From Polaromonas sp. (GTDB lineage: Bacteria > Pseudomonadota > Gammaproteobacteria > Burkholderiales > Burkholderiaceae_C), in assembly GCA_028292745.1 (NCBI GenBank), contig JAQGLT010000123.1:1-64000 (forward strand): DNA of 64,000 nucleotides, written 5' to 3'. The translations under genes were made by a program, and so were the position numbers. This document shows positions 10,024 through 62,139 of this stretch, piece after piece. The stretch's first letter is position 1. Each line of letters starts with the position of its first letter. The notes beneath the pieces are model-generated. The model was not told the origin of the DNA, ran no database searches, and saw nothing but the letters and a program-made list of their open reading frames with translations.

Positions 10024-12429
10024 TCACGCGTAGGCAGCCGCGCCGGCCAGGCGTCCCAGGTAGCGCTCCAGCACCGACAGCTCGGCCGCTGAAGGAAAGC
10101 CCTTGCCGGTGACGACAGCATGAATGTTTCCGTGGAATCCATCGCGCGGGTAATAGTTCGCAAACCCCCAGCCGATCAGCATCTGGTTGTAGACGCCCGG
10201 CGCGAAACTCGCCTTGCCGCTGCCCATCAACGCCGAATTGACGCGAAACAGCTGCTGGCCGGGCGCCGAGGCGAAGGTCAGCACCGCCGGGCGGTTCTGG
10301 GGCAGCTTTTCCGCGCTGGCCAGCATGACGGTCTGGCCTTTGGCATCGACCCACCGGGCCATGGGCTGGCCATTGGCAAACGCCAGCTCGGAGGTGTAGG
10401 ACGCCTCGGCCCGGGACGCCTCGAACACCAGGCCGGAGGTGTTGGGCGACGCGCTGCTCACCACGGCCAGGGCGAAATGCGCATCCTCGATGCTGTAGGG
10501 CACCCGGTTTTGCGGATTGGGCTGGATGCCGGCCTCGGGAACCGTCTTCTTGCACCAGAAGCCCCAGGTTTTGTCGCCCGCATGCTGCGACGCCTTCAGG
10601 CCGTTTTTCACCCGCATCACCGGCACCGCCATGCTGCCCATGGCGGCGCTGTCGGTGTTGGTCCAGTTGATCATCTCCATTGCATTGCCGGGACTGGAGC
10701 CATAGCCTGAATCGGACACGGCGCGCACCGGCTGGCCGTCGGCCGCCGGCGCGCCCAGCAGGTAGTCGCTGTAGCCGTCGGCCAGGTCCCACTTGCAGGC
10801 GTTGTATTTGGCCAGGATGGCGAGGGCCGCATCGGGCAGGCCGGTGGCCGCATGCGCCACCGGGTCGGCCAGGGAAAACACCTTGCGCGGCGGCGGCACC
10901 AGCAGGCCGGCCGGCAGGCCTTCGCCGGCATAGGCAAGCGTGGCGACCTCATTGGCCGCCGGCGTGTAGGTAAAGGTTTCCTGGCTGTTCGGGCCGGCGG
11001 GCAGCGTCAGCTGCGTGCGGCTCAGCTTGCCGCCGCCCTTGGCCGACACGGTGAGCGTGAGCGGCCGCGCCAGGTTGCCGCGGCCATACAGCGCAATCGT
11101 GACCGGCACGCCGGCGGCCCCGTGGGCGGGGCCGTCGCTGAAGAGCGTGGCCTGCGCAATGCCGGCCGAGGCCTTGAGCACGCCCGACACCAGCGGCTCC
11201 AGCGTCTTGTTTTGATGCCAGCCCGGCGCATGGTTGATGGCGTAGCCGTGGATCGGCCAGTGGTTGCCGCCCATCCAGGTGTAGACCTCGCAGCCGGCGT
11301 CGCGGGCATGGTCGATCGTTCGCCTGAACATCGCCGCCCAGCGCGCATCGTCGATCGGCATGCCGATTTCGGTCAGCGCCACCCGCACGCCTTTTTCCTT
11401 GGCCCAGTCGGTCGCCATCTTGAGCCGGTCCAGGCCGGTGTTGGCATGGATCGCCCGGTTGCCAAAGCCCGCGCTGGATTTTTTGGCGACCTCGGTGTCG
11501 AAGTCAAAGGCATGGCCGTTGCTCCGCGCATCCAGGTACAGGTGCACCTCGTAGATCAGGTTGTCGCCCGCCAGCGGAAAGCCGGGGTTTTTGGTCGCCA
11601 TCGCCATGGCCGAGCTCCATTCGTTGCCGGCGACATAAATCGGATTGACCTTGTCCAAGGCCCGGATCGCCTGGATGGCCGCCTGCGCGAAGGCCGGCCA
11701 GATCGTCAGGTCCTCGCCCGACGTTGACGCCACCACCGTGCCGGGCCTGGGCAGGTCGTGCGGCTCGTTCATCAGGCCGTAGCCGCCGAAGCCGGGGTGG
11801 TTTTTCCAGCGCTCGGCGGCCCGCTGCCAGAAATCGACAAAATGCGAAATTTTGAGGGTTGCCCCCTCGGCCAGCGAGAAAATCCGCTCCCTCACCTGTG
11901 CGGGATCCTGGGTGTAGGGGCGCATCAAGGGACTGGGCGGCGCCGTCAGCCCGACAACCGCGCGATTGGCCTGATACCGGAAGTCCTGGTAGCGGCAGTA
12001 GTTGTGCAAGTCGATGATGCAGCGAATGCCAGCCGCCGCGTGGGCGTCCAGCAGGCCGGTGATGTAGGACGCGTAGCCGGCATGGAATTCGCCCGGATTG
12101 CCAATCGCCGCCTTGGCGGCGGCATCGGCCTGCGTGTCGTGCAGCATGGGCTGCAGCAGTTCCCACTGGATGGGCAGCCGGTTCTTGGTGATGCCGCAGT
12201 CCGCCAGGTAGGCCACGTCGGCCTTGCGCGGCACGGTGAAGTGAATGTTGGGCGCTGAACTGAGGCCGTGGCGCAGGCCGGGCTTGGCCCATTCCATGCC
12301 CGACAGGTTGGTGCCGACGGCGACCGCGGCCTTGGCGCCCGGAGCGGCGGCCATCCCCGGCCGCTCCAGGCCCAGGGCGCGCATCGCCACGAGCGCAGCG
12401 GCTACTTTTGAAAATTCACGTCGTTGCAT
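10024..12429 (-). CDS. exported multidomain glycoside hydrolase family 5 (endoglucanase-like)
   Basis: 801 residues. Residues 1-30 form a twin-arginine-like signal (RREFSK, then a short hydrophobic run ending MAAAP), so export by Tat is likely. A GH5 barrel spans about 35-400: the acid/base Glu is in GLMNEP (about 222) and the nucleophile Glu in LTEIG (about 355), with HLYLD near 296. A beta-rich segment near 430-520 resembles an Ig-like or carbohydrate-binding linker domain. The last ~260 residues are another beta-rich region I cannot name. GH5 enzymes cleave beta-1,4-glucans or mannans; the substrate is not predictable here. No other polysaccharide genes are adjacent. Confidence 0.82.
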   Translation of the reverse strand: MQRREFSKVAAALVAMRALGLERPGMAAAPGAKAAVAVGTNLSGMEWAKPGLRHGLSSAPNIHFTVPRKADVAYLADCGITKNRLPIQWELLQPMLHDTQADAAAKAAIGNPGEFHAGYASYITGLLDAHAAAGIRCIIDLHNYCRYQDFRYQANRAVVGLTAPPSPLMRPYTQDPAQVRERIFSLAEGATLKISHFVDFWQRAAERWKNHPGFGGYGLMNEPHDLPRPGTVVASTSGEDLTIWPAFAQAAIQAIRALDKVNPIYVAGNEWSSAMAMATKNPGFPLAGDNLIYEVHLYLDARSNGHAFDFDTEVAKKSSAGFGNRAIHANTGLDRLKMATDWAKEKGVRVALTEIGMPIDDARWAAMFRRTIDHARDAGCEVYTWMGGNHWPIHGYAINHAPGWHQNKTLEPLVSGVLKASAGIAQATLFSDGPAHGAAGVPVTIALYGRGNLARPLTLTVSAKGGGKLSRTQLTLPAGPNSQETFTYTPAANEVATLAYAGEGLPAGLLVPPPRKVFSLADPVAHAATGLPDAALAILAKYNACKWDLADGYSDYLLGAPAADGQPVRAVSDSGYGSSPGNAMEMINWTNTDSAAMGSMAVPVMRVKNGLKASQHAGDKTWGFWCKKTVPEAGIQPNPQNRVPYSIEDAHFALAVVSSASPNTSGLVFEASRAEASYTSELAFANGQPMARWVDAKGQTVMLASAEKLPQNRPAVLTFASAPGQQLFRVNSALMGSGKASFAPGVYNQMLIGWGFANYYPRDGFHGNIHAVVTGKGFPSAAELSVLERYLGRLAGAAAYA

Positions 12430-12587: not shown

Positions 12588-12687
12588 CAATCAGCGTATC
12601 CTCGGATTTTCAGGCAGACAACGGCGAGAGCCAATTTCCACCCGTGCCGTCGGACAAGCCCGGCAATCCAGTCCGCAGGAGCCCATC

Positions 12688-13683
12688 ATCAACCTTCGCC
12701 AGCTTCAGTACTTCGCCCGTGTCGTCGAAACCGGCAACATCACCCGCGCCGCCGAACAGCTGTACGTGGCCCAGCCCGCGCTGGGCATGCAGATCCGCCA
12801 GCTGGAGGAAAAGCTGGGGGTGAGCCTGCTCAGCCGGCATTCGCGCGGCGTCTCGCCGACACGCGCCGGGCAGGTGCTGTACGAGCGCGCCTGCGAAATC
12901 CTGCGGCTGATCGATGAAACCGAGCGCGAGGTGGCGGCGGCCGGCCGGCTGGAGCGCGAAGGCATCGTGCTGGGCCTGACCAACGGCTTCATGAACATGG
13001 TCGGGCGCGAGCTGATCCTGCAGTCGCGCCAGGACCTGCCGGCCGTCAACCTCAGCCTGGTCGAGGAGCGCAGCGTGGTGCTGGTCGATGCGCTGGAGCG
13101 CCATGAGATCGACATTGCGCTGGCCTACGAGGTGCATGAGCGGCCGGGGCTGCTGCGGGTACCGCTGGTCGAGGAGGAAATGCTGTTTGTTTCGGCGGCG
13201 AGCAAGGTGCCTGCCGAAGAGCTGCAGCAGCCCATTGAATTCTCGGCGCTGGCCGGCCATGGGCTGGTGCTGCCGGGCAAGCGCGACGGCGTGCGCCAGC
13301 AGGTGCTGGCGACGGCCAAGCGGCTGGCGCTCGATCTGAACGTCATGCTCGACGTGTCCTCGATCTCGATGATGAAGAACATGGTGGCCCATGGCGACGC
13401 GGCGGCGGTCATGCCCTACGGCAACGCCATCGACGACATCGAAAGCGGCCGGCTGGCGGGCCGGCGCATCGTCAACCCGAGCCTCAAGCGAACGCTCTAC
13501 CTGGTGCGCTCCTTGCGGCGCGCGCCGTTCAAGTACGAGGACGAGCTGCTCGAACTGCTGCGTGCCATGAGCCTGCGGTTTGCCGACAAGCTCGGTCCGC
13601 TGGCCCGCCGGCTGGAGGCGCTGGAGCAGCCGCTGGCCGCCAGCCTGTCGGCCCTGCAGCACCGCGCTCAGCACAAACCCTGA
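12688..13683 (+). CDS. LysR-type transcriptional regulator with an ATC start
   Basis: 331 residues. The N-terminal helix-turn-helix (residues 1-60: NLRQLQYF, GNITRAAEQLYVAQPALGMQIRQLE, SRHSRGV) and the C-terminal inducer-binding domain are intact. The natural first residue for this family is the codon before Asn-Leu-Arg-Gln-Leu, and here that codon is ATC (12688), with AGGAG at 12677-12681 six bases upstream. The frame has no ATG until 12424, which lies inside the start of the divergent GH5 gene. It probably controls the downstream Bug/SDR cluster on the same strand. The subgroup resembles Nac/CbbR-like regulators near TctC genes. Confidence 0.85.
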   Translation: MNLRQLQYFARVVETGNITRAAEQLYVAQPALGMQIRQLEEKLGVSLLSRHSRGVSPTRAGQVLYERACEILRLIDETEREVAAAGRLEREGIVLGLTNGFMNMVGRELILQSRQDLPAVNLSLVEERSVVLVDALERHEIDIALAYEVHERPGLLRVPLVEEEMLFVSAASKVPAEELQQPIEFSALAGHGLVLPGKRDGVRQQVLATAKRLALDLNVMLDVSSISMMKNMVAHGDAAAVMPYGNAIDDIESGRLAGRRIVNPSLKRTLYLVRSLRRAPFKYEDELLELLRAMSLRFADKLGPLARRLEALEQPLAASLSALQHRAQHKP

Positions 13684-13711
13684 GTTTTCGGCCCCAGCCA
13701 CAACAAAAAGC

Positions 13712-13781
13712 TTGGGGCAGGCAGACCTCGATCGTTTTGGACTTGCGGCGCTGAATTCGTTGTAATTCTTGCGTGCCCCAA
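13712..13781. promoter_or_regulatory. nested inverted repeats around a candidate promoter of the catabolic cluster
   Basis: Outer pair: TTGGGGCA (13712-13719) and TGCCCCAA (13774-13781), exact complements. Inner pair: GAATT (13753-13757) and AATTC (13764-13768), fitting the T-N11-A logic of LysR sites. A TTGGAC (13737-13742) with an 18-bp spacer to TGTAAT (13761-13766) could be the -35/-10. The position, between the LysR gene and the first Bug gene, suits LysR control. Confidence 0.45.
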
Positions 13782-13839
13782 AGGCATGCGGATTTCAACG
13801 AAAGGCTGCTGCAGGCGGCCTTGCCACAGGAGACAAACG

Positions 13840-14838
13840 ATGACGATGCATTCAATCGACCGGCGGGGTTTTCTACGCGATGCCGGCCTCGCCACCGCCG
13901 CGCTGGCGCTTCCTGCGCTGGGCCGGGGCCAGGACAGCTACCCGAACAAGCCGGTCAAGCTCAATGTCGGCTTCTCGGCGGGCGGGCTCACCGACGTGCT
14001 GGCCCGCCTGACGGCCACCAGCCTGGGCGACAAGCTGGGCCAGCCGGTCATCATTGAAAACAAGACCGGCGCGGCGGGCAACCTGGCGACCGAATTTGTC
14101 ACCAAGGCCCCGGCCGACGGCTACAACCTGCTGTTCTCGTCGGTCGGCCAGATCGTGGTGTCGCCCCACACCTATACCGACATGCGGGTCAATCCGCAGA
14201 CCGACCTGTCGCACATCTCGATGATCGGCGAAGGCGACCTGATCCTGACGGTGAACACCCAGGTGCCGGCCCAGACCATCCAGGAGTTCATTGCCTTCGT
14301 CAAGAAAAGCCCGGGCCAGCTGTTCTTCGGCGACTCCGGCGCGGGCGGCAACCTGCACCTGTACATGGAGTATTTCAACCTGCTGGCCGGGCTGAAGATG
14401 ACCGGCGTGCATTACCGGGGCACGGCCCAGCTGATGCCCGACTTCCTCGGCAACCAGGTGCAGATGAGCCTCAATGCCTACCCGGCCATCGAGGCCTATA
14501 TCCAGCAAGGCAAGCTGCGCGCGCTGATGGTGGTGGGCCGCCAGCGCGAAGCCAAGCTGCCCAATGTGCCGACCTGCGCCGAAGTGGGCCTAAAGCCGCT
14601 GGAGGTCTGCACCAACTGGTTTGGCCTGCATGCCCCCAAGGCCCTGCCCGAACCCATCAGGCAGAAGCTGCGGCTGGCGCTGGTCGAGGCGCTGAAGACC
14701 GAGGCCATGCAAACCGGCCTGGCGCTGCAGTCGATCCGGCCGGTCGGCGACACCCCGGCCGCCTTCACCGCGCGCATTGCGTCCGACTACGAAGCGTTTG
14801 CCAAGGTGGCCCGCAGCGCCAACATCCGGGTCGGCTGA
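13840..14838 (+). CDS. Bug/TctC-type tripartite tricarboxylate transporter binding protein (first)
   Basis: Periplasmic solute-binding protein, 332 residues from the ATG at 13840 (AGGAGA at 13828-13833). The signal has twin arginines (DRRGFL) followed by a hydrophobic stretch, so Tat or Sec export. The mature part shows the Bug pattern: YPNKPVKL, VGFSAGGLTDVLAR, IIENKTGAAGN, ADGYNLL, VHYRG, and LPNVPTCAEVGL near the end. Bug proteins usually bind carboxylated or aromatic organic acids. It is the first gene after the LysR regulator. No TctA/TctB membrane genes are nearby, as is common for Bug proteins in this group. Confidence 0.9.
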   Translation: MTMHSIDRRGFLRDAGLATAALALPALGRGQDSYPNKPVKLNVGFSAGGLTDVLARLTATSLGDKLGQPVIIENKTGAAGNLATEFVTKAPADGYNLLFSSVGQIVVSPHTYTDMRVNPQTDLSHISMIGEGDLILTVNTQVPAQTIQEFIAFVKKSPGQLFFGDSGAGGNLHLYMEYFNLLAGLKMTGVHYRGTAQLMPDFLGNQVQMSLNAYPAIEAYIQQGKLRALMVVGRQREAKLPNVPTCAEVGLKPLEVCTNWFGLHAPKALPEPIRQKLRLALVEALKTEAMQTGLALQSIRPVGDTPAAFTARIASDYEAFAKVARSANIRVG

Positions 14839-14876
14839 GCGTCGCCCTCCTCACACTTACTTACCAAGGATTCATC

Positions 14877-15677
14877 TTGACTCTGGAAAACACCGAAGGC
14901 CGGGGCCGCCTGGCCGTTGTGATTGGCGGCGGCAACGGCATTGGCGCGGCCACCTGCGCCCTGCTGCACCAGCGCGGCTGGCGGCTTGTCGTGGCCGACA
15001 TCGACCTGGCGGCCGCCGAGGCCATCGCCGGCCAGTGCGAAGGCCACAGCCTGCGGATCGACGTGCTCGATGCGCAGTCGATTGCCGATGCCGCCGCCCG
15101 TATCGAGGCCGAGCACGGCGCGTTTTACGGCATGGTGAACTCCGCCGCGATCTTCGCGCCGCAGATGGCGCCCGAGCTGATGCCCATGGACACCTGGGAC
15201 CGGATCGTCCAGTCGGGCTACCGGGGCACCTACATCAGCAATGTCGAGTTCGGCAAGCGCATGGCGGCGCAGGGCGCGGGCGCCATCGTCAACATCTCGT
15301 CCATGGTCGGCCAGCGCCCCAACCACGGCCATGCGTACTACTCGGCCAAGGCCGCCGTCAACATGCTGACCGAAGGCATGGCGGGCGAATGGGGCCGCAG
15401 CGGCGTTCGCGTCAACGCGGTCAGCCCCGGCTTCGTGGCGGTGCCGCGCATGGTCGCCAACATCAAGGAAGGCAAGCGCTATGCGGTGTCGCCGGTCGAG
15501 GTCAGCGCGCTGGGCCGGCTGGTCGAGCCTTCGGAAGTCGCCGAGTCGATCGCCTTTTTGCTGTCCGACAGGGCCTCGGCCATCACCGGCGCCAACCTGG
15601 CCGTCGATGCCGGCGTGCTGGCGACCAACGGCTGGGTGGTGCATGGCGGCGTGCCGCCCGCGCGGCCCCGCGCTTGA
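14877..15677 (+). CDS. short-chain dehydrogenase/reductase
   Basis: 266 residues from a TTG start at 14877 with AAGGA seven bases upstream; no ATG is available before the Rossmann motif. Classical SDR signatures: GGGNGIG (17-23), an NSAAI segment near 88, Ser141/142 in NISS, Tyr154 and Lys158 (YYSAK). It oxidises or reduces an alcohol/ketone with NAD(P). The Asp at the end of beta-2 (VVADID) suggests NAD preference. It lies between the two Bug genes, 38 bp after the first, so it is co-transcribed with them. Confidence 0.88.
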   Translation: MTLENTEGRGRLAVVIGGGNGIGAATCALLHQRGWRLVVADIDLAAAEAIAGQCEGHSLRIDVLDAQSIADAAARIEAEHGAFYGMVNSAAIFAPQMAPELMPMDTWDRIVQSGYRGTYISNVEFGKRMAAQGAGAIVNISSMVGQRPNHGHAYYSAKAAVNMLTEGMAGEWGRSGVRVNAVSPGFVAVPRMVANIKEGKRYAVSPVEVSALGRLVEPSEVAESIAFLLSDRASAITGANLAVDAGVLATNGWVVHGGVPPARPRA

Positions 15678-15768
15678 GCGGCTGCGCCCCTGAGCACCTG
15701 CATCACGCCAACATCACCCCCAAAAACCCTGTCCGCCCAGCGGGCGCCGAGACCAAGGAATAGCCATC

Positions 15769-16767
15769 ATGAAAAACACAACACTTTCCCGCCGCAACCT
15801 GATCAAGGCCGGTGCCGGCATCGCCGCCGGCATGGCGCTGCCGCTGGTCGGCCAGGCCCAGGCCTACCCGGGCAAAGCCATCAAACTGGTCGTCGGCTTT
15901 GCCCCCGGCGGCCTGACCGATGCCTTGCCGCGCCTGCTCAGCGGCCCGATGAGCGAGCGGCTGGGCCAGTCGGTGATCGTTGAGAACAAGGCCGGCGCCG
16001 CCGGCAACATCGCCACCGCCTTCGTGGCGAATGCCGCGCCCGACGGCTACACCCTGCTGGCCTCGGGCGTGGGCCAGATCGTGGTGCTGCCGCACACCTC
16101 GAACCTGAGCGTCAACCCGCTGACCGACCTGGTGCACATCTCCATGATGGGAGAAGGCGACCAGATCCTGAACATCAATGCCGACGTCCCCGCCAAGAAC
16201 CTGGCCGAATTCATCGCGCTGGCCAAGAAAAACCCCAAGTCGATGTTCTATGGCGACGCCGGCGCCGGCGGCAACCAGCATTTGTACCTGGAGTATTTCA
16301 GGATGCTGGCCGGCATCGAGATGGAGGGCGTGCATTACCGGGGCGGCGGCCCCCTGATGCCCGACCTGCTGTCCAACCGGGTGCAGATGAGCCTGAATGC
16401 GCCGTCGGTGGTCGAACCCTACATCGCCCAGGGCAAGCTGCGCCCTATCCTGATCGTCGGCAAGAAACGCAACCCCAAGATGCCTGACGTGCCCACCGCC
16501 GCCGAGGCCGGGCTGCAGCAACTCGAAGCGTGCAGCAACTGGTTCGGCCTGCACGCGCCCAAGGGAACACCCGACGCCATCGTGCAGAAAATCCATGCCG
16601 CGCTGGTGGACAGCCTGAAGTCCGACGTGGTGAAAGCCGGGCTGGTCACGCTGGGCGTGCAGTCGATTGGCGATACGCCCCACGCCTTTAATGCCCGCAT
16701 CGCCAAGGACTATGCGCTGTTTGGCAAGGTGGCGAAGGACGCCAACATCCGGGCCGAAGGCTCGTGA
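15769..16767 (+). CDS. Bug/TctC-type binding protein (second)
   Basis: 332 residues, with a twin-arginine-like signal (SRRNLIKAG and a hydrophobic run, cleavage near QAQA). It has the same Bug motifs as the protein at 13840 and is clearly a paralogue (shared VGFAPGGLTDALPR, ENKAGAAGN, GDAGAGGN, VHYRG, CSNWFGLHAPKG). The two differ in many positions, so this is an old duplication or two independent acquisitions rather than a recent copy. Two binding proteins in one cluster suggest two related ligands. Confidence 0.9.
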   Translation: MKNTTLSRRNLIKAGAGIAAGMALPLVGQAQAYPGKAIKLVVGFAPGGLTDALPRLLSGPMSERLGQSVIVENKAGAAGNIATAFVANAAPDGYTLLASGVGQIVVLPHTSNLSVNPLTDLVHISMMGEGDQILNINADVPAKNLAEFIALAKKNPKSMFYGDAGAGGNQHLYLEYFRMLAGIEMEGVHYRGGGPLMPDLLSNRVQMSLNAPSVVEPYIAQGKLRPILIVGKKRNPKMPDVPTAAEAGLQQLEACSNWFGLHAPKGTPDAIVQKIHAALVDSLKSDVVKAGLVTLGVQSIGDTPHAFNARIAKDYALFGKVAKDANIRAEGS

Positions 16768-16834
16768 TGCGCCCCATTGACCCCGGCCTGGCCAGGGCCG
16801 CAAAAGCCGCCCGCGGCACAAGGACGAGAAACAA

Positions 16835-17929
16835 ATGAGCGACCACCCCACACTGCCTGTGGCCCAATTGCAGGCCTTCGTCATTGCCATCTTTGTGGCC
16901 GCAGGGCTTTCGGAGGCGGACGCCCGCACCCTGGCCGCGAGCCTGATCGAGGCCGACCTGCGCGGCACCCATTCGCACGGCGTCATTCGCCTGCCCTTCC
17001 TGGTGGACCGGCTGCTGGAGGGCGGGGCCAACCGCCAGCCGGACATCCGGGTGGTGAACGACGCGCCCGGCACCGCCCTGCTCGACGGCGACCGGGCGCT
17101 GGGCGCCATCACGGCGACGCGGGCGATGGAGATGGCGATCGAGAAAGCCCGCACGCAGGGCATCGGCTTTGTCACCGCCCGCAACAGCGACTTCATCGGC
17201 ACCTGCGCCCACTACGCCATGAAAGCCCTGCCGCACGACATGATCGGCATCGCCTGGACCAACGGCTTTCCGGGCATGGCGCCGTGGGGCGGGCGCAGCA
17301 ACACCATCGGCAACAACCCGATTGCGTTTGCCGCGCCCAGCCTGTCGCACGGCCCCATCGTGCTGGACATGGCGCTGAGCGTGGCGGCCGGTGGCCGCAT
17401 CCGGCTGGCGGCCAAGAACGGCGAGAAGATTCCGCGCGACTGGCTGGTGGACAGCGGCGGCCAGCCGACCGACGACCCGCAAGCGCTGGCCGCCGGCGGC
17501 GCGCTGCTGCCGCTGGGCTACAAGGGCTACGGCCTGGCGGTGTTCGGCGAGATTTTGTGCGGCGTGCTGACCGGCTCGCGCATCCTGGGCGAAATCCCGG
17601 CCTGGTTCAAGGACACGGGCAGCGCCATCGGCAACGGCCACCTGCACATCGCCATCGACATCGCCCGCTTCGTGGAGCCCGAAGCCTTCAAGCTGCGCAT
17701 GGACGGGCTGGTCTCGCTGCTCAAGGCCACGCCGCTGATGCCCGAGGTGCGCGAAATCCTGCTGCCCGGCGAGCGGGCGTGGAAAACCCAGCAGCACCAG
17801 GAAAAGCACGGCATTCCTGTGCCTTCGCCCGTGGCGGCCGACCTGATGGCACTGGCCCGGCGGCTGGGCGTGGCGGCACCCGCCTCGCTCCTTCCTTCTT
17901 TTTCTGATTCCCTGGATTGCACGACATGA
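16835..17929 (+). CDS. Ldh2/YlbC-type malate/L-lactate/ureidoglycolate dehydrogenase family enzyme
   Basis: 364 residues. This family (unrelated to classical MDH/LDH) oxidises 2-hydroxy acids with NAD(P). Recognisable blocks are the N-terminal helix with SEADARTLAASLIEADLRG, THSHGV near 48, ARNSDFIGTCAHYA near 128, NGFPGMAPWGG, NTIGNNPIAFAAP, DMALS and LGYKGYGLAVFGEIL. A GACGAG-type leader (ACAAGGACGAGAAACAA) provides a weak ribosome site. The stop overlaps the next start (ATGA, 17926-17929), so translation of the two is coupled. The true substrate is unknown and is probably the hydroxy acid handled by the cluster. Confidence 0.87.
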   Translation: MSDHPTLPVAQLQAFVIAIFVAAGLSEADARTLAASLIEADLRGTHSHGVIRLPFLVDRLLEGGANRQPDIRVVNDAPGTALLDGDRALGAITATRAMEMAIEKARTQGIGFVTARNSDFIGTCAHYAMKALPHDMIGIAWTNGFPGMAPWGGRSNTIGNNPIAFAAPSLSHGPIVLDMALSVAAGGRIRLAAKNGEKIPRDWLVDSGGQPTDDPQALAAGGALLPLGYKGYGLAVFGEILCGVLTGSRILGEIPAWFKDTGSAIGNGHLHIAIDIARFVEPEAFKLRMDGLVSLLKATPLMPEVREILLPGERAWKTQQHQEKHGIPVPSPVAADLMALARRLGVAAPASLLPSFSDSLDCTT

Positions 17930-18780
17930 AAACAATGACCCTTGCCCACCTGACCCTGAGCGCCACACCGGCCGAAACGATCGATGCGGCGGCCCGCGCC
18001 GGCTTTGGCGCCGTCGGGCTGCGCATCTGCGGTCGCCGGCCCGGCGATGCGTTCGCCACGCCGCTGATCGGCAACCCCGCCGCCCTTCAGGCGCTGCGCC
18101 AGCGCGCCGCCGACCAGGGCATTCGCCTGTCCAACGTGTCGGCCTACCAGTTCTATCCCGACGTGACCTGGGAACAGGTGGCCCCCGCCATCGAGGCGAC
18201 CCATGCGCTGGGCATCCCGGTCATCGTGGCCAACGGCTTCGATGCCGACGAGGAACGGTTCACCGCGCTGTTTGCCCGCTACTGCGAAGGCGCTGCCGCA
18301 GCCGGCATCCGCGTGGCGCTGGAGTTTCTGCCCTACAGCGGCGTGCGCAACCTGGACGCCGCGCTGCGCATCATCGAGCGCAGCGGCGCCGGCAACGCCG
18401 GCGTGCTGCTCGACGCGCTGCACCTGGACCGCTCGGGCAGCCTGCCCGCCGACATTGCCGCCATCGACCCGGCCCGGATCGTTTTTGCGCAGCTGTGCGA
18501 TGCGAAAAAACTCATCGGCCAGCGCACCGACGACGAACTGCTGCAGGAAGCCCGGGGCGCCCGGCTGCCGGCCGGCCAAGGCGAGCTGCCGCTGTTCGAC
18601 TTCCTCGATGCGCTGCCGAGCGGCCTGGAGATTGAATACGAGGTGGCGCGGATGGACCTGGCCGACCGCTCGCCGCTTGAAAAAGCGCAGGCCGCGCATG
18701 ACGACGCCGAGCGCTTCATGGCCGCCTATGCCGCCCATGCAGCGTCCCGCCAGGCCCTGAACACCGCTGCGGTGGACTGA
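17926..18780 (+). CDS. sugar phosphate isomerase/epimerase (xylose isomerase-like TIM barrel)
   Basis: 284 residues from the ATG at 17926, which overlaps the upstream stop. The AP endonuclease family 2 / xylose isomerase-like barrel has metal-binding acids at strand ends: Glu in ALEFLPYSG near 135, Asp in LLDALHL near 167, a Gln/Asp pair in FAQLCDAKK near 193, and Glu in LEIEYEVA near 236. Members isomerise sugars, epimerise ketoses or dehydrate keto-inositols. The position between an Ldh2-type and a Gfo/Idh-type dehydrogenase suggests a sugar-acid or polyol route. The gene is four bases from the next. Confidence 0.85.
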   Translation: MKTMTLAHLTLSATPAETIDAAARAGFGAVGLRICGRRPGDAFATPLIGNPAALQALRQRAADQGIRLSNVSAYQFYPDVTWEQVAPAIEATHALGIPVIVANGFDADEERFTALFARYCEGAAAAGIRVALEFLPYSGVRNLDAALRIIERSGAGNAGVLLDALHLDRSGSLPADIAAIDPARIVFAQLCDAKKLIGQRTDDELLQEARGARLPAGQGELPLFDFLDALPSGLEIEYEVARMDLADRSPLEKAQAAHDDAERFMAAYAAHAASRQALNTAAVD

Positions 18781-18784
18781 CGCC

Positions 18785-19852
18785 ATGCTTGAAAAAACCA
18801 TCTTGCGTGTCGGCGTGCTGGGCTGCGGCATGATCAGCGCCGACCACTTTGCCGCCTGGGCGCAATGCCAGGGCGCTCAGGTCGTCGCCGTCTGCGACCC
18901 GATGGCGGACCGCGCCAGGGCCCGCGCCGAGCAGTTCGGCATCCCAGCCTTCTACGACTCGCCCGAGGCCATGATGGCCGCCGAGTCGCTGGACCTGATC
19001 GACATCATCACGCCGCGCGAAACCCATGCGGCCATGGTGCGGCTGGCCGCCCGCCACGGGATTCATGCGCTCAGCGAGAAGCCGCTGTGCCCGACCCTTG
19101 CCGAAGCCGAGGCGCTGGTCGCAGAAGTCGGCGGCACCATCCGCGTGATGGTCAATGAGAACTGGCGCTACCGGGCGTACTTTCGCAAGATTGCCGAATG
19201 GCTGCAGGCCGGCAAGCTGGGCACCATCACACTGGCGCGCATGGCCCTGTGGCGCTCGAGCATGCTGCCGCGCGCCGAGGACGGAAAAATCCATGCACTG
19301 ACGCGCCAGGCCTTTCTGGCCAAGGAAGAGCGGGTGCTGATCGCCGAATCGCTGATCCATGAAATCGACGTGATGCGCGCCCTGTTCGGCGAACTCGACG
19401 TGCTGGCCTGCAGCACCGGCCGGGCCTGCCCCGGCATCGTCGGCGAAGACAGCGCCACCATTTTGCTGCGCACCGGCTATGGCCTGACGGTGACGATCGA
19501 CGGCGTCATGACCGCCGCCGGCCACGACACCCGCGCGCCCGACCGGCTGGAGATTGCCGGCACGCGCTGCAGCGTGGTGCTCGAAGGCGCGGTGCTCAAG
19601 CTCATCGGCGCCGAAGAGGAAACCCATGTGTACGACGAGGCGGTGGTGCGGCAAAACTGCTTCAACGCCTCGATCCAGCATTTTGTCGACCAGGTCAAGA
19701 GTGGCGGCCCGTTCTGGACCTCGGCCGAGGACCAGCTGGGCAGCCTGCGCGTCATGGAGGACGCCTACCGGCTGGCCGGGCAGATGCCCGTTCTGTCGGC
19801 CATGCAGCTTCCCCCGGTTGCGCCGCCGCGCATCACCGGTTTCGACATCTGA
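18785..19852 (+). CDS. Gfo/Idh/MocA family oxidoreductase
   Basis: 355 residues. The N-terminal Rossmann domain has GxGxxxAxH (LGCGMISADHF, near 12-22) and the family hallmark Glu-Lys-Pro (EKP near 99-101); the C-terminal alpha/beta domain follows with ESLIHEIDVMRALFG, containing the His expected in the active site. Members oxidise sugars, inositols or cyclic polyols with NAD(P). The start is four bases after the TIM-barrel stop, which makes an operon almost certain. The combination resembles inositol- or sugar-acid-type pathways, but the substrate is open. Confidence 0.88.
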   Translation: MLEKTILRVGVLGCGMISADHFAAWAQCQGAQVVAVCDPMADRARARAEQFGIPAFYDSPEAMMAAESLDLIDIITPRETHAAMVRLAARHGIHALSEKPLCPTLAEAEALVAEVGGTIRVMVNENWRYRAYFRKIAEWLQAGKLGTITLARMALWRSSMLPRAEDGKIHALTRQAFLAKEERVLIAESLIHEIDVMRALFGELDVLACSTGRACPGIVGEDSATILLRTGYGLTVTIDGVMTAAGHDTRAPDRLEIAGTRCSVVLEGAVLKLIGAEEETHVYDEAVVRQNCFNASIQHFVDQVKSGGPFWTSAEDQLGSLRVMEDAYRLAGQMPVLSAMQLPPVAPPRITGFDI

Positions 19853-19892
19853 TTTGATTGGATTTGATTTTTAATTTCACAGGAGTTTGACA

Positions 19893-20573
19893 ATGGCTTT
19901 GGCAGGAACAGGACTGATCGCGATCTGGAATGACATTCTTCCCGAACTGCGCGAGGATTTTTTCGAATGGCACCCGCGCGAGCACATGGTGGAGCGCCTG
20001 GGCATTCCCGGCTTCCTGCGCGGGCGCCGCTACATCGCGGTCGATGGCGGCGTGGAATTTTTGACGCTGTATGAAGTCACCAGCACCGACGTGCTGGTCA
20101 GCGACATTTACAAGGAGCGCCTGACGCAGCCCACGCCGTGGTCGACCAAGACGCTGCCAGGATTTTTCAACAACGAGCGCGGCGCCTGCCAGATCGAGTT
20201 CAGCCAGAGCTACGCCATGGGCGGCGCCATGCTGACGCTGCGCTTTGAGGCTGAAGCAGGCAAGGAAGCTGTGCTGATTGACGCGGTCAAGGCCGCCATG
20301 GCGGGCCTGGTTGACGCGCCCCGCGTCACCGGCGCGCACCTGGTCAAGAACGACGTGTCGCTGACCGGCGGCAACTCGGGCAACCAGCGCGGCCGCGTGA
20401 TCACGCTGCCGCACCTGGTGGTGCTGATCGAAGGCTCCGGCCTGGAAGGCGTGCGCGCTGCGGGAGAAAAATTCCTTGGCAACGCCTGCTTGGCAGAACT
20501 GGGCGCCAAGCCGGAGGTGACGCGCGGGCTTTACCAGCTGGAGTACAGCATCCAGAATCTGGCGGAAAAATAA
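19893..20573 (+). CDS. double EthD-like (dimeric alpha/beta barrel) protein
   Basis: 226 residues from the ATG at 19893 with AGGAG at 19881-19885. The first half has an EthD-like signature (FFEWHPREHMVERLGIPGFLRGRRY), which forms a ferredoxin-like fold. The second half repeats the beta-alpha-beta pattern (MLTLRFEA, a helix of KEAVLIDAVKAAMAGL, and GAHLVKND), so the protein looks like a tandem of two such domains. EthD-like proteins often accompany catabolic enzymes but most have no assigned reaction. It ends the cluster. Confidence 0.65.
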   Translation: MALAGTGLIAIWNDILPELREDFFEWHPREHMVERLGIPGFLRGRRYIAVDGGVEFLTLYEVTSTDVLVSDIYKERLTQPTPWSTKTLPGFFNNERGACQIEFSQSYAMGGAMLTLRFEAEAGKEAVLIDAVKAAMAGLVDAPRVTGAHLVKNDVSLTGGNSGNQRGRVITLPHLVVLIEGSGLEGVRAAGEKFLGNACLAELGAKPEVTRGLYQLEYSIQNLAEK

Positions 20574-40664: not shown

Positions 40665-41000
40665 AACCGATTCCTTTCAGGAATAGAAACGTATAGACAA
40701 CGTTGGGAAACCTGACGCAGGCCGTTGATCGACAAGCCAGTCAGGCCTTCAATGCTAGCAAAATGCCCATTGGGCCGGCCTGACCCACGACATGCGCGTT
40801 GAGGCGACCAGCGGCAGCGCACCCGGCGCCATGCCTTTTGTCATTCCAAAGCAAAAAGGTGGCTTCCGTCAGGCGCCGATGCATTGAATAATCGCATCAT
40901 GCCAGCCCGCTCATCCGTCCCGCCCCGACCACGCTCTCCATTGCCGCGTGCCGGGGGACGGTCTTGCGCGGCGGCGCTTTCAATTGCAGGAGTCACTGGC
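40665..41000. other. intergenic region upstream of the kynurenine operon
   Basis: 336 bp. The frame of the formamidase is open back to 40884, but the extension is Pro/Arg-rich and a ribosome site (GCAGGAG at 40985-40991) precedes 41001. The operon promoter should be here. No KynR/Lrp-like site was recognised with confidence. Confidence 0.5.
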
Positions 41001-41864
41001 ATGAAGCTGTACGGCGATTTTTCTTCCCAGGCCGAGATCGACGCGCAGTACAACGCGTCGCTGCGCGTGGCCGATCCCGCGGCCGAGATGGCGCATTACG
41101 CCGCCGCCGCTGGGCTGGCCCGCCAGCGGCTGCAATGCCGGCTCGACCTGCGCTACGGCGCGACCCTGGACGAGACGCTGGACATCTTCCCTGCCGCGCA
41201 GCCCAGGGCGCCAGTATTCGTCTTTTTGCACGGTGGCTACTGGCGTGCGCTGGGCGCCAAGGACTTCAGCGGCGTGGCTCTGGGCCTGCAGGCGCGCGGC
41301 ATCACCACCGTGGTGGTGAATTACGCGCTGTGCCCCAAGGTCACGCTGGAGGAGATCACCCGGCAGTGCCGCGCCGCCGTGGCATGGACGCTGCGCCACA
41401 TCGGCGACCATGGCGGCGATCCGGCGCGCGTGGCGGTCGGCGGCCATTCCGCCGGCGGGCACCTGAGCGCGATGTGCCTGCTGACCGACTGGGCGGGCGA
41501 CTACGGCCTGCCGGCTGACCCGCTGCGCGCCGCCCTGCTGGTCAGCGGCCTGTTCGACCTGGCGCCGCTGCGCTGGAGCTACCTGCAGCCGGTCATCCAG
41601 CTCGACGATGGCCTTATCCGCCGGCAGTCCCCGCTGCTGCAGGTGCGTCGCTGCGCCACGCCGGCGCTCATCGCCTGGGGTGCCGACGAGAGCAGCGAGT
41701 TCGCGCGCCAGTCCACCGCTTTCGGCACGGCCTGGCGGGCCGCCGGCAACACGCATGAACAGCTGGCCCTGCCCGGCTGCCATCATTTCTCCGCCATCCA
41801 TGGCTTCGAGCAGGCGCAGAGCCCGCTCGTTGACTGGCTGGCCCACCAGCTTGGAGCCGCATGA
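41001..41864 (+). CDS. kynurenine formamidase, alpha/beta-hydrolase type
   Basis: 287 residues. Hydrolyses N-formylkynurenine to kynurenine in tryptophan breakdown. Features: HGGYWR at 77-82 (oxyanion), Ser150 in GHSAGG, Asp229 in WGADES and His261/262 near the end, giving a Ser-Asp-His triad. This belongs to the AFMID-like alpha/beta hydrolase group, not to the metal-dependent KynB cyclase family. The stop overlaps the kynU start (ATGA, 41861-41864), which strongly supports the pathway role. The start at 41001 was chosen over the longer frame because of the ribosome site. Confidence 0.9.
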   Translation: MKLYGDFSSQAEIDAQYNASLRVADPAAEMAHYAAAAGLARQRLQCRLDLRYGATLDETLDIFPAAQPRAPVFVFLHGGYWRALGAKDFSGVALGLQARGITTVVVNYALCPKVTLEEITRQCRAAVAWTLRHIGDHGGDPARVAVGGHSAGGHLSAMCLLTDWAGDYGLPADPLRAALLVSGLFDLAPLRWSYLQPVIQLDDGLIRRQSPLLQVRRCATPALIAWGADESSEFARQSTAFGTAWRAAGNTHEQLALPGCHHFSAIHGFEQAQSPLVDWLAHQLGAA

Positions 41865-43165
41865 GCGACATCACCCGCCTGGCTTGCCAGGCACTCGACG
41901 CCCAGGACAGCCTCGCCCCCTTGCGCGGGCAGTTCTCGCTGCCTGCGGGCATGCTTTACCTCGACGGCAATTCGCTGGGCCCTTTGCCCAGCGCCACCGC
42001 TGCCCGCGTGCAGGCCGTGGTCACCGGCGAATGGGGCCAGGGCCTCATCAGCAGCTGGAACAGCGCCGGCTGGATCGACCGGCCGCGCCTGGTCGGCGAC
42101 AAGATCGCTCGCCTCATCGGCGCCGGTCCAGGCGAGGTGGTGGCCGTGGATTCCACGTCCATCAACCTTTACAAGGTGCTGGCCGTGGCGCTGGCACTGG
42201 TCCGCGAGGGCGCGCCCGGCCGCCGCCGCATCGTCTCCGAGCGCGACAATTTTCCGACCGACCTCTACATCGCCGAAAGCCTGGCCCGCCAGCACGGCTG
42301 CGACCTGACGCTGGCGGGCGCCGACGAGATCGAGGCCCAGCTCGATGACAGCGTCGCGGTGCTGATGCTCACGCAGGTGAACTACCGCACCGGCCGGCTG
42401 CTCGACATGGCCGCCTTGACGGCCCGCGCGCATGCCGCCGGCGCGCTGGCCGTGTGGGACCTGGCGCACAGCGCCGGCGCCCTGCCGGTGGATCTGCGCG
42501 GAGCGGGCGCGGACTTCGCGGTGGGCTGCGGCTACAAGTACCTCAATGGCGGCCCAGGCGCGCCCGCCTTCGTCTGGGTCCATCCGCGCCATGCGGCGCG
42601 GATGGACGCCGAGGCGCGCTGGCAGCCGCTGTCGGGCTGGATGGGCCATGCCACGCCGTTCGATTTCACGCCGGGTTACCAGCCAGGGGCAGGCATCGGC
42701 CGGTTTATCTGCGGCACGCCGTCGGCAATTTCGCTGGCGGCGCTGGAGTGCGGCGTTGACACGCTGCTGGCGGCTGAGGCCTGCGGCGGCCTGGCGGCGC
42801 TGCGCCGCAAGTCGCTGGCCCTGAGCGACCTGTTCATCGCGCTCGTCGAGCAGCGCTGCGCCGGCCACGGCCTGCAGGTGCAGACACCGCGCGAGCACGC
42901 ACGGCGCGGCAGCCAGGTCAGCCTCTACCTGGACCCGGCCGACGGCGACGCCTACGCCATGGTGCAGGCGCTGATCGAACGCGGCGTGATCGGCGACTTC
43001 CGGGCGCCGGGCATCCTGCGCTTTGGCCTGACCCCGCTGTACCTGGGCTTTGCCGAGGTCTGGGACGCCGTCGATCATTTCGCGCAAGTGCTGGCCAGCG
43101 GCCAATGGCGCGAGCCGCGCTTCAGCCGCCGCAGCCGCCCGAGCCACCGCACCACCGTGACATGA
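41861..43165 (+). CDS. kynU: kynureninase
   Basis: 434 residues. PLP-dependent cleavage of kynurenine (and hydroxykynurenine) to anthranilate and alanine. The PLP Lys is in [11 protein letters not shown] (about Lys226), preceded by [14 protein letters not shown] with the cofactor-binding Asp; [12 protein letters not shown] near 32 and the final [15 protein letters not shown] block complete the family pattern. Translation is coupled to the formamidase upstream. Eight bases separate its stop from kynA. Confidence 0.95.
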
Positions 43166-43172
43166 GCCGACC

Positions 43173-44033
43173 ATGAACCAACCCGTCCACGGCCCCGCTG
43201 GCACCGAACGCATTGTTGCGGAGGAAGGCGCGCAGCTAGACTTCAGCCGCCACATGAGCTACGGCGACTACCTGCACCTCGACCAGCTTCTGGCCGCCCA
43301 GCACCCGCTGTCGCCCGCGCACGACGAAATGCTCTTCATCGTGCAGCACCAGACCAGCGAGCTGTGGATGAAGCTCATGCTGCACGAACTCACCGCCGCC
43401 AGCGCCGCGGTGCGGGCTGACGCGCTGGCGCCGGCCTTCAAGATGCTGGCCCGCGTCAGCCGCATCATGGAGCAGCTGGTGGGCGCCTGGACCGTGCTGG
43501 CAACGATGACGCCGCCCGAGTACACCGCCATGCGGCCCTACCTGGTCAACTCCAGCGGCTTTCAAAGCGCGCAATACCGCTGCATCGAATTTGCGCTCGG
43601 CAACAAGAACGCGGCCATGCTCAAGCCGCACCAGCACCGCCCAGAGTTGCTGCAACAGGTGCAAACCGCCTGGCGCGCGCCCTCGCTGTACGACGAGTCG
43701 CTGCGCCTGATGGCCCGCTGTGGCCTGGCGCTGCCAGCCAGCCACCTGGAACGCGACTGGACCGCGCCCTACGAAGCCAGTGAAGCGGTCGAGCAGGCCT
43801 GGCTGCAGGTCTACCGCGACCCGGCGGCGCATTGGGATCTGTACCAGCTGGGCGAGAAGCTGACCGACATCGAGGACGCGTTCCGCCTCTGGCGTTTTCG
43901 CCATGTGACGACCGTGGAGCGTGTGATCGGTTTCAAGCGCGGCACCGGCGGCACGGGCGGCGTGAGCTACCTGCGCAAGATGCTCGACGTGGTGTTGTTC
44001 CCCGAGCTGTGGTCGCTGCGCACCCATCTTTGA
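43173..44033 (+). CDS. kynA: tryptophan 2,3-dioxygenase
   Basis: 286 residues. Haem enzyme that opens the indole ring with O2 to N-formylkynurenine, the first pathway step. Signature: [42 protein letters not shown] with the substrate-contact residues, [20 protein letters not shown], and the haem-ligand His region [28 protein letters not shown]. Length matches bacterial KynA. It closes the operon; the anthranilate formed could enter catabolism elsewhere. The gene order is formamidase-kynU-kynA. Confidence 0.97.
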
Positions 44034-59747: not shown

Positions 59748-60977
59748 TCATGCCTTGGAAACCCTCACCGTGGCGTCTGCCCGCTTGTGCAGGTCTGGCA
59801 GCAGTTCCAGGCCCAGGCCCGGCTTGTCGCCCAGGCTGATCATTCCATTTTTGACGACCGGCAATTCGGTCACGAGTTCCCTGTACCAGCCGGTGTAGAA
59901 AGCGCGCACGCTTTCCTGAACGAGCGCGTTGGGGGCATGCAGCGACAAATGCGTTGACGCCGCCCACACCACCGGCCCGGTGCAGTCATGCGGCGCCACA
60001 GGCAGTTGCCACGCATCGGCCATGCCGGCGATTTTCCGGGCCTCGGTCAGGCCGCCGCACCAGCTCAGGTCGAGCATCACCACCCCCGCCACGCCGGCCT
60101 GCAGATAGTCCTTGAAGCCCCATTTGTAGCTGAGCGTTTCGCTGGCGCAGATCAGCGCATCGCAGTCCTTGGCGTACTGCCTGAGCAGGTCCAGCGAATC
60201 CATTCGGATGGCGTCTTCATGCCAGAAGGTGTTGAAGGGCTTGAGCGCGCGGGCGATCTTCTGCGCCATGGGCAGGCGCCACAGGCTGTGGAACTCGACC
60301 ATGATGTCCATCTTGTCGCCGACCGCATCGCGGATCTTGCGAAAAGGCGCCAGCGCGGCGTCGAGGTCTTCGCTGCTGATGTACTGGCCCTGGCTTTTCT
60401 CGGCGGCCGGATCAAATGGCCAGATTTTCATCGCGGTCACGCCTTCGGACAGCAGCGACTGGGCCACCTCATCGGCCCGGTGCAGGAAGCCCTCCAGGTC
60501 TTCATATGGCCCAGCGGCCTGGCCCCGGGCGGCGTCCAGCCCCCAGTTGGCGGTGCTCTGGTTGACAGTGCTGCGCACATACTGGTAGCCGGCGCAGGTG
60601 TTGTAGATGCGGATGGCGTCGCGGCTCTTGCCCCCCAGCGCGGTGTGCAGCGGCATGTTGGCGGCCTTGCCGAAAATATCCCACAGCGCAATGTCAACGG
60701 CCGAGTTTCCGCGGGTTTCCACGCCCGAGCCGCGCCAGCCCAGGTAGCCGGTGAGGTCGCGGTTGCGTGCCTCGATGGCCAGCGGGTCCTGGCCCAGCAG
60801 CTTGGGCGCCACCCATTCATGCACATACGCCTCGACCGCCGCCGCCCCCATGAAGGTTTCGCCCAGGCCGGTCAGTCCTTCGTCGGTGCGCAGGCGTATC
60901 CAGATGATGTTGGGGAACTCGCCCAGCCGAACGGTTTCGACTTCAACGATTTTCAATGGCGCCTCCGCAAGTGACAT
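59748..60977 (-). CDS. mandelate racemase/muconate lactonizing enzyme family protein (sugar-acid dehydratase type)
   Basis: 409 residues, enolase superfamily. The capping domain is followed by a barrel with Lys184 in AMKIWPFDP, metal ligands Glu228 (MVEFHSLWR), Glu254 (HEDAIRM) and Glu280 (ASETLS), and His330 in APHDCTG. This set fits the acid-sugar dehydratases (for example galactonate/gluconate/mannonate type) in which His and Lys act as base/acid. The exact acid is unknown. It closes the TRAP operon, 63 bp after dctP, so the transporter probably imports its substrate. Confidence 0.88.
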   Translation of the reverse strand: MSLAEAPLKIVEVETVRLGEFPNIIWIRLRTDEGLTGLGETFMGAAAVEAYVHEWVAPKLLGQDPLAIEARNRDLTGYLGWRGSGVETRGNSAVDIALWDIFGKAANMPLHTALGGKSRDAIRIYNTCAGYQYVRSTVNQSTANWGLDAARGQAAGPYEDLEGFLHRADEVAQSLLSEGVTAMKIWPFDPAAEKSQGQYISSEDLDAALAPFRKIRDAVGDKMDIMVEFHSLWRLPMAQKIARALKPFNTFWHEDAIRMDSLDLLRQYAKDCDALICASETLSYKWGFKDYLQAGVAGVVMLDLSWCGGLTEARKIAGMADAWQLPVAPHDCTGPVVWAASTHLSLHAPNALVQESVRAFYTGWYRELVTELPVVKNGMISLGDKPGLGLELLPDLHKRADATVRVSKA

Positions 60978-61040
60978 GAAAAACGACCGCGAGGGTTGCC
61001 CCTGGCGGCCTTGCGAACCCCTTTTTCAGCAAAGGCCTGC

Positions 61041-62063
61041 TCAGCCGCCGCGGGCTTTTTTCAGGGCTTCCATCACGATATTGACGGGCTCCGCGCCAAT
61101 CGTGGGCAGGTTTTTGTCATAGACCGGCTTGACCTTGTCAAACATGCGGCGCTGCTCTGCCGGGGTGATCTCGTTGACGACCATTCCCTTGGCCTTCAGG
61201 CTGGCGAGCGATTTTTCCGACTGCGAGCGGATCGCGGCACGCTGCACTTTCTGGCCCTCCAGCGCGGCTTCCCGCAACACGGCCTGCTCCTGGGGGTTCA
61301 ACTGGTCCCACAGTTTCTTGCTGTACAGGATCAGGAAAGGCGTGTAGGCGTGCCGGGTCACGCTCAGGTATTTCTGCACTTCGTTGAACTTGGAGGTTTC
61401 GATGGTGACAAACGGGTTTTCCTGCCCGTCGATGGTCTTGGTCTCCAGCGCGGTGAACACCTCGCCGAAATTCATCGGCACCGCGTTGGTTCCCAGGGTC
61501 TTGAACGTGTCCAGAAAGATGTTGTTCTGCATGACACGGACCTTCACCCCCTGGAAGTCCTCGGCAGTCGCCACCGGCCGCTTGTTGTTGGTCAGGTTGC
61601 GAAAGCCGTTTTCCCAATAGGCAAGATTGACCAGCCCGGCCTCTTCCAGCTTTTTGTTGAAGTAAGCGCCAGCTGGGCCGTCCAGCACGGCATCGGCCTC
61701 CTTTTCGTTGGCGAACAGGAACGGCAGGTCGAACACGCCCAGTTCCTTGATGATGCCCACCAAAGGCGAGCTGGAGGTGCAGACCATCTCCTGCGTGCCG
61801 GCACGCAGGGCCTGGGTGGCCTGCAGGTCGCCGCCCGCCGCGTTGTTCCAGAAGGCATTGATCTTCATCTTGCCGCCGGTCTTGGCGGCAAGGATTTCCT
61901 GCATCTTCTTGACCCCGAGCCCGACCGGATGGTCTTCGGCCACGCCATTGGTGAACTTGATGGTCCGGTCGGCGAACTGGGCGAATGCCGCCGTGCTCGC
62001 GAGCAGGGCCGCGCCGACCAGGGCTGAGGGAAGCAGTGTTAAAAGGGTTCTGCGTTTGAACAT
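61041..62063 (-). CDS. dctP: TRAP transporter solute-binding protein DctP
   Basis: 340 residues. Signal peptide MFKRRTLLTLLPSALVGAALLASTAAFA, cleavage after AFA. The mature DctP domain begins FADRTIKFTNGVAEDHPVG, with the typical KMQEILAAKTGGKMKINAF, and the ligand-binding Arg in GVKVRVMQNNIF near 175. Periplasmic binding of a carboxylate, probably a sugar acid given the neighbour enzyme. It follows dctM by 76 bp on the same strand. Confidence 0.93.
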   Translation of the reverse strand: MFKRRTLLTLLPSALVGAALLASTAAFAQFADRTIKFTNGVAEDHPVGLGVKKMQEILAAKTGGKMKINAFWNNAAGGDLQATQALRAGTQEMVCTSSSPLVGIIKELGVFDLPFLFANEKEADAVLDGPAGAYFNKKLEEAGLVNLAYWENGFRNLTNNKRPVATAEDFQGVKVRVMQNNIFLDTFKTLGTNAVPMNFGEVFTALETKTIDGQENPFVTIETSKFNEVQKYLSVTRHAYTPFLILYSKKLWDQLNPQEQAVLREAALEGQKVQRAAIRSQSEKSLASLKAKGMVVNEITPAEQRRMFDKVKPVYDKNLPTIGAEPVNIVMEALKKARGG

Positions 62064-62139
62064 GTTGTCTCCTTGATAAATTGAAATGGCTGAACTGGCT
62101 GACGACGGTTATCTTTGCCCTGGCTGCGGAAAAATGCAA

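Follow-up and report, generated by a model that had tools for sequence, protein, structure and literature searches.

Organisation of the operon

Within a 64,000-nucleotide stretch of DNA from Polaromonas sp. (contig JAQGLT010000123.1 of assembly GCA_028292745.1, positions 1 to 64,000), referred to here as the window, positions 12688-20573 hold eight genes, all on the + strand, which encode a LysR-type regulator, two Bug binding proteins, a short-chain dehydrogenase/reductase (SDR), an Ldh2-family oxidoreductase, a TIM barrel, a Gfo/Idh/MocA dehydrogenase and an EthD-like protein. This operon is conserved, rare and without a described pathway, and it looks like an uptake-and-breakdown unit under LysR control. 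Its genes, together with one non-coding element, are arranged as follows.

12688..13683, + strand: LysR-type regulator (Pfam HTH_1 4.4e-23, LysR_substrate 4e-29), probable ATC start
13708..13767, no strand assigned: conserved non-coding block, candidate operator/promoter, from the alignment of four orthologous LysR-Bug1 intergenic regions
13840..14838, + strand: Bug1, TctC-type periplasmic binding protein (Pfam TctC 2.4e-59), reading frame open from 13786
14877..15677, + strand: SDR oxidoreductase (Pfam adh_short_C2 6.6e-48), TTG start with AAGGA upstream
15769..16767, + strand: Bug2, second TctC-type binding protein (Pfam TctC 7.5e-59)
16835..17929, + strand: Ldh2-family (malate/L-lactate dehydrogenase type 2) oxidoreductase (Pfam Ldh_2 1.3e-113)
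17926..18780, + strand: TIM-barrel isomerase/dehydratase (Pfam AP_endonuc_2 3.5e-19), reading frame open from TTG 17917
18785..19852, + strand: Gfo/Idh/MocA dehydrogenase dependent on nicotinamide adenine dinucleotide (phosphate), NAD(P) (Pfam GFO_IDH_MocA, PF01408, 5.5e-25)
19893..20573, + strand: EthD/DUF4286-like protein (19-sequence alignment), AGGAG 7 nucleotides before the ATG, reading frame open from TTG 19887

Seven of the eight proteins are assigned to Pfam families, and for all seven (LysR, two Bug or TctC proteins, SDR, Ldh2, TIM barrel and Gfo/Idh/MocA) these agree with an initial annotation of this DNA; the last protein falls in no Pfam family. Both Bug proteins exceed the TctC cut-off of 27 bits, at 201.5 and 199.9 bits. 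The probable starts differ from those of the longest open reading frames for Bug1 (13840), the TIM barrel (17926) and the EthD-like protein (19893). Bug1 probably begins at ATG 13840 rather than at 13786, since a GGAG before 13840 is invariant in four orthologues, and the TIM barrel probably begins at ATG 17926, on the Ldh2 stop codon, in an ATGA overlap. The genes had been described as overlapping in several places or separated by very few bases, which is true of two junctions, this one and the 4-nucleotide gap between the TIM and Gfo genes, but not of the others, where gaps of about 34-91 bases occur and the LysR-Bug1 gap is 102-156 bases depending on the Bug1 start. G+C content stays even across the surrounding DNA, at about 0.67.

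Conservation, distribution and regulation

The operon has been found in four genera, Polaromonas and three others, with orthologous proteins 63-97% identical. In the family, a Gfo match at E<=1e-40 occurs in 7 of 399 sampled genomes, and four of these hold the operon (the source genome, G636, G784 and G505); in the remaining three (G804, G598 and G563) the Gfo match was seen without any further operon enzyme alongside. G636 is a 3-contig genome with a listed completeness of 100%, so that a cultured isolate may exist. The order is LysR-Bug1-SDR-Bug2-Bug3-Ldh2-TIM-Gfo-EthD-like in the G636 locus (L158; orthologous pairs 76-88% identical), LysR-Bug1-Ldh2-TIM-Gfo-EthD-like-SDR in that of G784 (L159; 63-77%) and LysR-SDR-Bug2-Ldh2-TIM-Gfo-EthD-like in that of G505 (L160; 63-74%). 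LysR, at least one Bug, SDR, Ldh2, TIM, Gfo and EthD-like genes are thus present in all three, and gene order, which the initial annotation had proposed to check in relatives, is largely kept in other genera with small reshuffles. These three sets of orthologues came from a different search than the contig scan, which uses exact peptide words, so that orthologues of moderate identity can escape it. Of the two loci in other Polaromonas genomes, discussed next, L067 shows the order LysR-Bug1-SDR-Bug2-Ldh2-TIM-Gfo and L066 runs from SDR to Gfo.

Within the genus, 3 of 87 genomes carry operon genes, the source genome included, with Gfo orthologues 96% identical in G001 and G460; the loci of these two metagenome-assembled genomes end at contig ends inside the operon, and the EthD-like position lies beyond view. 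Five further genomes of the genus hold Gfo relatives of 29-40% identity only. A search with Ldh2 returned two Polaromonas loci (RYN_585 and RYN_574) at 88-90% identity, the next being at 48% among the best 80 of 171 loci. The ratio of nonsynonymous to synonymous substitution rates against orthologues is 0.09-0.49 in all 19 comparisons, which cover five of the eight genes, and these five are under purifying selection.

Concerning known pathways, no operon protein reached the cut-off of an NCBIfam model among the matches listed (the best 25 of 54 for LysR and the best 25 of 223 for the SDR), with Ldh2 falling under the cut-off of all five models that it matched. No description of the operon was found in literature searches that covered mainly open-access papers. 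As far as these results reach, the view of the locus as a conserved catabolic cluster with a LysR regulator and without a described pathway is upheld by both the conserved order and the homology and literature results.

The comparison of loci also bears on the start of the LysR gene, which is co-directional with the operon. Codon 12688 is ATC rather than ATG, GTG or TTG, and it is likely the start codon in the window, where a CAGGAG Shine-Dalgarno sequence lies 6 nucleotides upstream. The start position is ATC in four of five loci (the window, L067, L159 and L160) and ATG in L158; in L160 the first in-frame ATG, GTG or TTG falls within the gene, and the L067 start is ambiguous, with an ATG two codons before the ATC. 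Downstream, in the best stretches of the 13708..13767 block, 13-14 of 20 columns are identical across all four orthologous intergenic regions, that of G784 included. The block, within the 156-bp LysR-Bug1 gap, is likely the LysR target; a sigma-70 consensus scan found no promoter-like site.

As judged by eye from the starts of open reading frames, the flanks of the compared loci appear to hold housekeeping or unrelated genes, and for this reason the unit is taken to run from LysR to the EthD-like or SDR gene; the L159 locus has two extra Bug genes close by, as well as one for an M81 peptidase. DNA similarity to L067 starts at 12686, two bases ahead of the likely LysR start, which together with the patchy distribution suggests horizontal movement of the operon. 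A PFK gene flanks the operon in the window, and upstream, on the opposite strand, an 801-aa GH5-like protein is encoded at 10024-12429, with a homologue in 25 other genomes of the genus, where it is not next to PFK. Homologues of the PFK neighbour and the GH5-like protein occur in 16 and 26 of the 87 genomes, respectively (E<=1e-80, source genome included). An empty site was not found, as eight other genomes have both genes and never within 50 kb on one contig.

Protein functions and the substrate class

We tentatively favour, at somewhat under even likelihood, a hydroxylated cyclohexane polyol or polyol acid as the substrate, that is, a cyclitol or a quinate/shikimate-like carboxylate. The TIM barrel gives profile matches to Lmo2234 (1.5e-26), IolI (1.5e-19) and 5hmq (1e-18), and a Foldseek search with its AlphaFold model (predicted local distance difference test, pLDDT, 62) ranks 5hmq first by E-value, 2g0w close to it, and ketose 3-epimerases and IolI next. 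5hmq is presumably the QuiC fusion dehydratase, and the substrates of QuiC and IolI are cyclohexane polyols; the likeness of the TIM barrel to QuiC goes no further than profile and fold. All 17 aligned sequences share R36, E136, D166, R172, D195, R213, R216 and E242. It is distinctly improbable that the operon is a variant of the route from quinate and shikimate to protocatechuate, with the TIM barrel as 3-dehydroshikimate dehydratase. Such a route would account for the two 5hmq matches and for the occurrence of some EthD-like and TIM relatives near AroQ/AroE, and near pca genes in S. meliloti Rm41, but the TIM barrel scores 34 bits against a QuiC equivalog cut-off of 1200 (a weak test, as the model spans a 635-aa fusion), AroQ/AroE are not near the operon, no pca gene is in it, and Ldh2 and the EthD-like protein would be left without a role. 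The source genome also carries, on contig C67 (L043, 13069-17161), a paralogous LysR-TIM-Gfo-Bug module with genes for a thiamine pyrophosphate (TPP) enzyme, an aldehyde dehydrogenase and FAH-family proteins within about 13 kb.

The EthD-like protein belongs to a family in which W14, W28, H33, R37, R48 and Y62 are invariant among the 19 members aligned; two of these match DUF4286 and two match ABM. The EthD family, which we take to be PF07110, has no match at E<=1 in the window protein and is absent from the four families matched among the 19 members. The label is kept from the earlier reading of this DNA, as the W...H...H...E-R signature of the protein presumably resembles the EthD motif. That reading also held the protein to be a double EthD, which is unproven: beside the missing EthD match, the two halves align by hhalign at a probability of 1.2%, and an internal duplication is thus unsupported. 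Searches of the PDB returned two matches at E 1.3 and 1.9 with the sequence and one at E 0.74 with the 19-member profile, none of them meaningful, and a single-sequence AlphaFold model (pLDDT 41.5) was not used. Fungal decarboxylases are among the EthD-domain proteins (PMC6368318); as the window protein itself lacks an EthD match, this makes a decarboxylase role no more than conceivable.

Matches to the EthD-like protein occur in 13 of 61 sampled genomes, the source genome included; among 72,556 plasmid records, 76 have one, always at below 60% identity. Among the 12 strongest matches outside the source genome (E<=1e-14, weaker ones dropped), three have AroQ/AroE within 10 kb, where 0.25 would be expected under random placement ignoring contig ends (P=0.0015). 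Two plasmid clusters, on Antarctobacter pSMS3-1 and Ponticoccus p-SCP2, have a near-identical organisation, with an EthD-like gene followed by Gfo, and also carry a type II dehydroquinase, a TPP enzyme, SDRs and a flavin adenine dinucleotide (FAD) oxidoreductase. An IolD identity was considered for three TPP enzymes near relatives and is unsupported, as other TPP models score higher.

The best PDB match of the Gfo protein is 5uhw (1.6e-37); this match gave a lead to an apiose (branched-sugar) pathway, which is not claimed: one literature search gave no paper on it and another gave 28 that contain the words. The candidate catalytic residues are K99-E188-H192, with Glu in place of the usual Asp of the K-D-H triad known from inositol dehydrogenase (PMC5969746). 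The Lys, within an EKP motif, and the His of that triad are retained, and both occur in nine of nine aligned sequences, eight of which, the window protein included, have Glu for Asp. The scyllo-inositol dehydrogenase of Paracoccus laeviglucosivorans also oxidises L-glucose (PMC5969746), and since one enzyme can serve both cyclitols and a pyranose, Gfo homology alone cannot settle the substrate class. A variant inositol (iol) operon, with Gfo as IolG and the TIM barrel as IolE or IolI, is hardly credible: the Gfo protein does match the IolG model and the TIM barrel does match IolI, but the former scores 102 bits against a cut-off of 355, none of the eight proteins is of the IolB, IolC or IolD type, and IolD is found over cut-off in one of six operon-bearing genomes, which is not the source genome (assembly 88% complete).

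As for uptake, Bug1 has a putative twin-arginine-like signal, RRGFLR, Bug2 has a weak TAT_signal match under its cut-off, and cross-comparisons of the two between loci give 54-60% identity. The source genome has nine TctA matches, two of them fragments. A further possibility, and quite an improbable one, is that the operon modifies or detoxifies an aromatic or alicyclic acid, the Bug proteins serving for sensing rather than uptake. Bug proteins are mainly unassigned (PMC11452294), and relatives are found close to phthalate, intradiol and MaoC genes; on the other hand, the operon has no oxygenase or CoA ligase, and three dehydrogenases with an isomerase-type barrel suggest polyol oxidation.

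A carbocyclic substrate is favoured because the TIM barrel lies near Lmo2234, IolI and 5hmq and because EthD-like relatives are often beside AroE, AroQ, Gfo or TIM genes. Of the 76 plasmid neighbourhoods, 23 were inspected, with flanks of 7-12 kb; among the 22 annotated ones, AroE/AroD/AroQ genes occur in 9, Gfo in 6, TIM-type genes in 7 and any of these in 13. On the same side stand the occurrence of the operon in four genera, three Shikimate_dh_N genes that accompany a TIM paralogue on the 37.5-kb contig C127 of the source genome (L044), one such gene with the TIM relative in L050, the three of 12 EthD-like matches close to AroQ/AroE, the Antarctobacter heliothermus pSMS3-2 cluster described below, the nine TctA matches of the source genome, and the Lys and His that the Gfo protein shares with the inositol-dehydrogenase triad. 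In the proposed scheme, the two Bug proteins, probably exported by twin-arginine translocation (Tat), would bind the compound or its stereoisomers and deliver it to TctAB permeases whose genes lie elsewhere. The Gfo/Idh/MocA and SDR enzymes would each oxidise one ring hydroxyl to a ketone, and the QuiC/IolI-like TIM barrel, probably metal-dependent, would isomerise or dehydrate the beta-hydroxyketone. The EthD/DUF4286-like protein may act on the keto acid or enone so formed by dehydration, decarboxylation or aromatisation, Ldh2 would interconvert 2-hydroxy and 2-oxo acid, and the product would reach central metabolism through enzymes encoded elsewhere. An earlier proposal was that a polyol or sugar acid is oxidised and isomerised in series. 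For a polyol, the enzyme families are compatible with it; as to a sugar acid, the evidence leans somewhat more towards a carbocyclic polyol or polyol acid.

Several observations weigh against a carbocyclic substrate. AroQ/AroE were found within 10 kb of the operon in none of the four operon genomes (the source genome, G636, G784 and G505), and no ring-cleavage enzyme lies within the operon. The TIM-barrel model was built from three input sequences and is of modest quality. A Shikimate_dh_N gene is present in two of the five TIM-relative stretches with open reading frames listed (L043, L044, L045, L050 and L054). The plasmid neighbourhoods were picked by rank and genus, with no random control, and of the 22 annotated ones 5 have an amidase context and 4 none of these contexts. 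In this tally, tblastn to the window proteins matches only three of the seven TIM-type and four of the six Gfo genes, and H67 and H70 are almost the same locus. Lastly, the 38-40% identical Gfo relatives in G439 and G028 adjoin a dihydrodipicolinate synthase (DHDPS)-type aldolase, to which the G439 locus adds IlvD/EDD, a hydroxyacid dehydrogenase, an amidohydrolase and, by eye, a sugar-type ATP-binding cassette (ABC) transporter. The gene company in G439 is a sugar-oxidation set, and it conflicts with the shikimate-type context of other relatives.

The same Gfo relatives favour a rather unlikely alternative, in which a sugar or sugar acid is oxidised: Gfo would convert an aldose to its lactone, the TIM barrel would epimerise, and the SDR and Ldh2 would oxidise an aldonate or diketo acid, with the EthD-like protein as a mutarotase- or lyase-like accessory. 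The nearest solved structures of the SDR are 5jla, a putative SDR, and galactitol dehydrogenase (2wdz), ketose 3-epimerases are among the Foldseek matches of the TIM barrel, and Ldh2 distantly matches 3-dehydro-L-gulonate 2-dehydrogenase (163 bits versus 316). Against this, the operon has no sugar dehydratase, aldolase, kinase or lactonase, none was recognised by eye at the edges in L158-L160, the nearest TIM-barrel matches are Lmo2234, IolI and 5hmq, and the EthD-like family often accompanies shikimate-type genes.

Within the preferred carbocyclic reading, a wider proposal, in our view unlikely, is that an unrecognised, widespread bacterial system dismantles non-aromatic six-membered carbocycles and has the EthD/DUF4286-like protein, in the role of ring dehydratase, decarboxylase or aromatase, as its signature enzyme. 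Different lineages would pair it with AroE-, AroQ-, TIM-, Gfo- or FAH-type enzymes, and the window operon would be the Gfo/SDR/TIM/Ldh2 branch. If a carbocyclic substrate is correct, the operon would provide a compact, testable gene set by which Burkholderiales degrade cyclic polyols from plants and a first functional context for a protein family that has no Pfam model of its own, and the ligands of two orphan Bug proteins would directly indicate the substrate.

Elsewhere in the window, genes for an alpha/beta hydrolase, kynureninase and tryptophan 2,3-dioxygenase stand in tandem at 40884-44033, probably a kynurenine-pathway operon, and a mandelate racemase/muconate lactonizing-type enzyme with tripartite ATP-independent periplasmic (TRAP) transporter genes at 59748-63998 marks a probable sugar- or hydroxy-acid locus.

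Comparison with known systems

In quinate/shikimate degradation, QuiC is the 3-dehydroshikimate dehydratase. The operon resembles this system in its QuiC/IolI-type TIM barrel, and relatives of several of its genes occur with AroQ/AroE; it differs in having no AroQ, AroE or pca genes and in adding Gfo, Ldh2, the EthD-like protein and two Bug proteins. Myo-inositol (iol) catabolism employs a Gfo dehydrogenase and a TIM barrel as a pair, which oxidise and then isomerise or dehydrate. The operon has a similar pair and would follow the same logic, but its Gfo protein is under the IolG cut-off, IolB, IolC and IolD are missing from it, and the source genome has no IolD over cut-off. The scyllo-inositol/L-glucose dehydrogenase of Paracoccus laeviglucosivorans is likewise a Gfo enzyme and has Asp where the window protein has Glu; the operon has no genes of the L-gluconate type (PMC5969746).

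Tripartite tricarboxylate transporters (TTT) share Bug/TctC proteins with the operon, which has two of them, yet the operon has no TctA or TctB. A cluster on Antarctobacter heliothermus pSMS3-2 holds relatives of the LysR (43%), SDR (50%), TIM (39%) and Bug (36-39%) proteins; it has AroQ (type II dehydroquinase), a TPP enzyme, an aldehyde dehydrogenase, GMC, RraA and a full TTT, whereas the operon described here has Ldh2, Gfo and the EthD-like protein instead.

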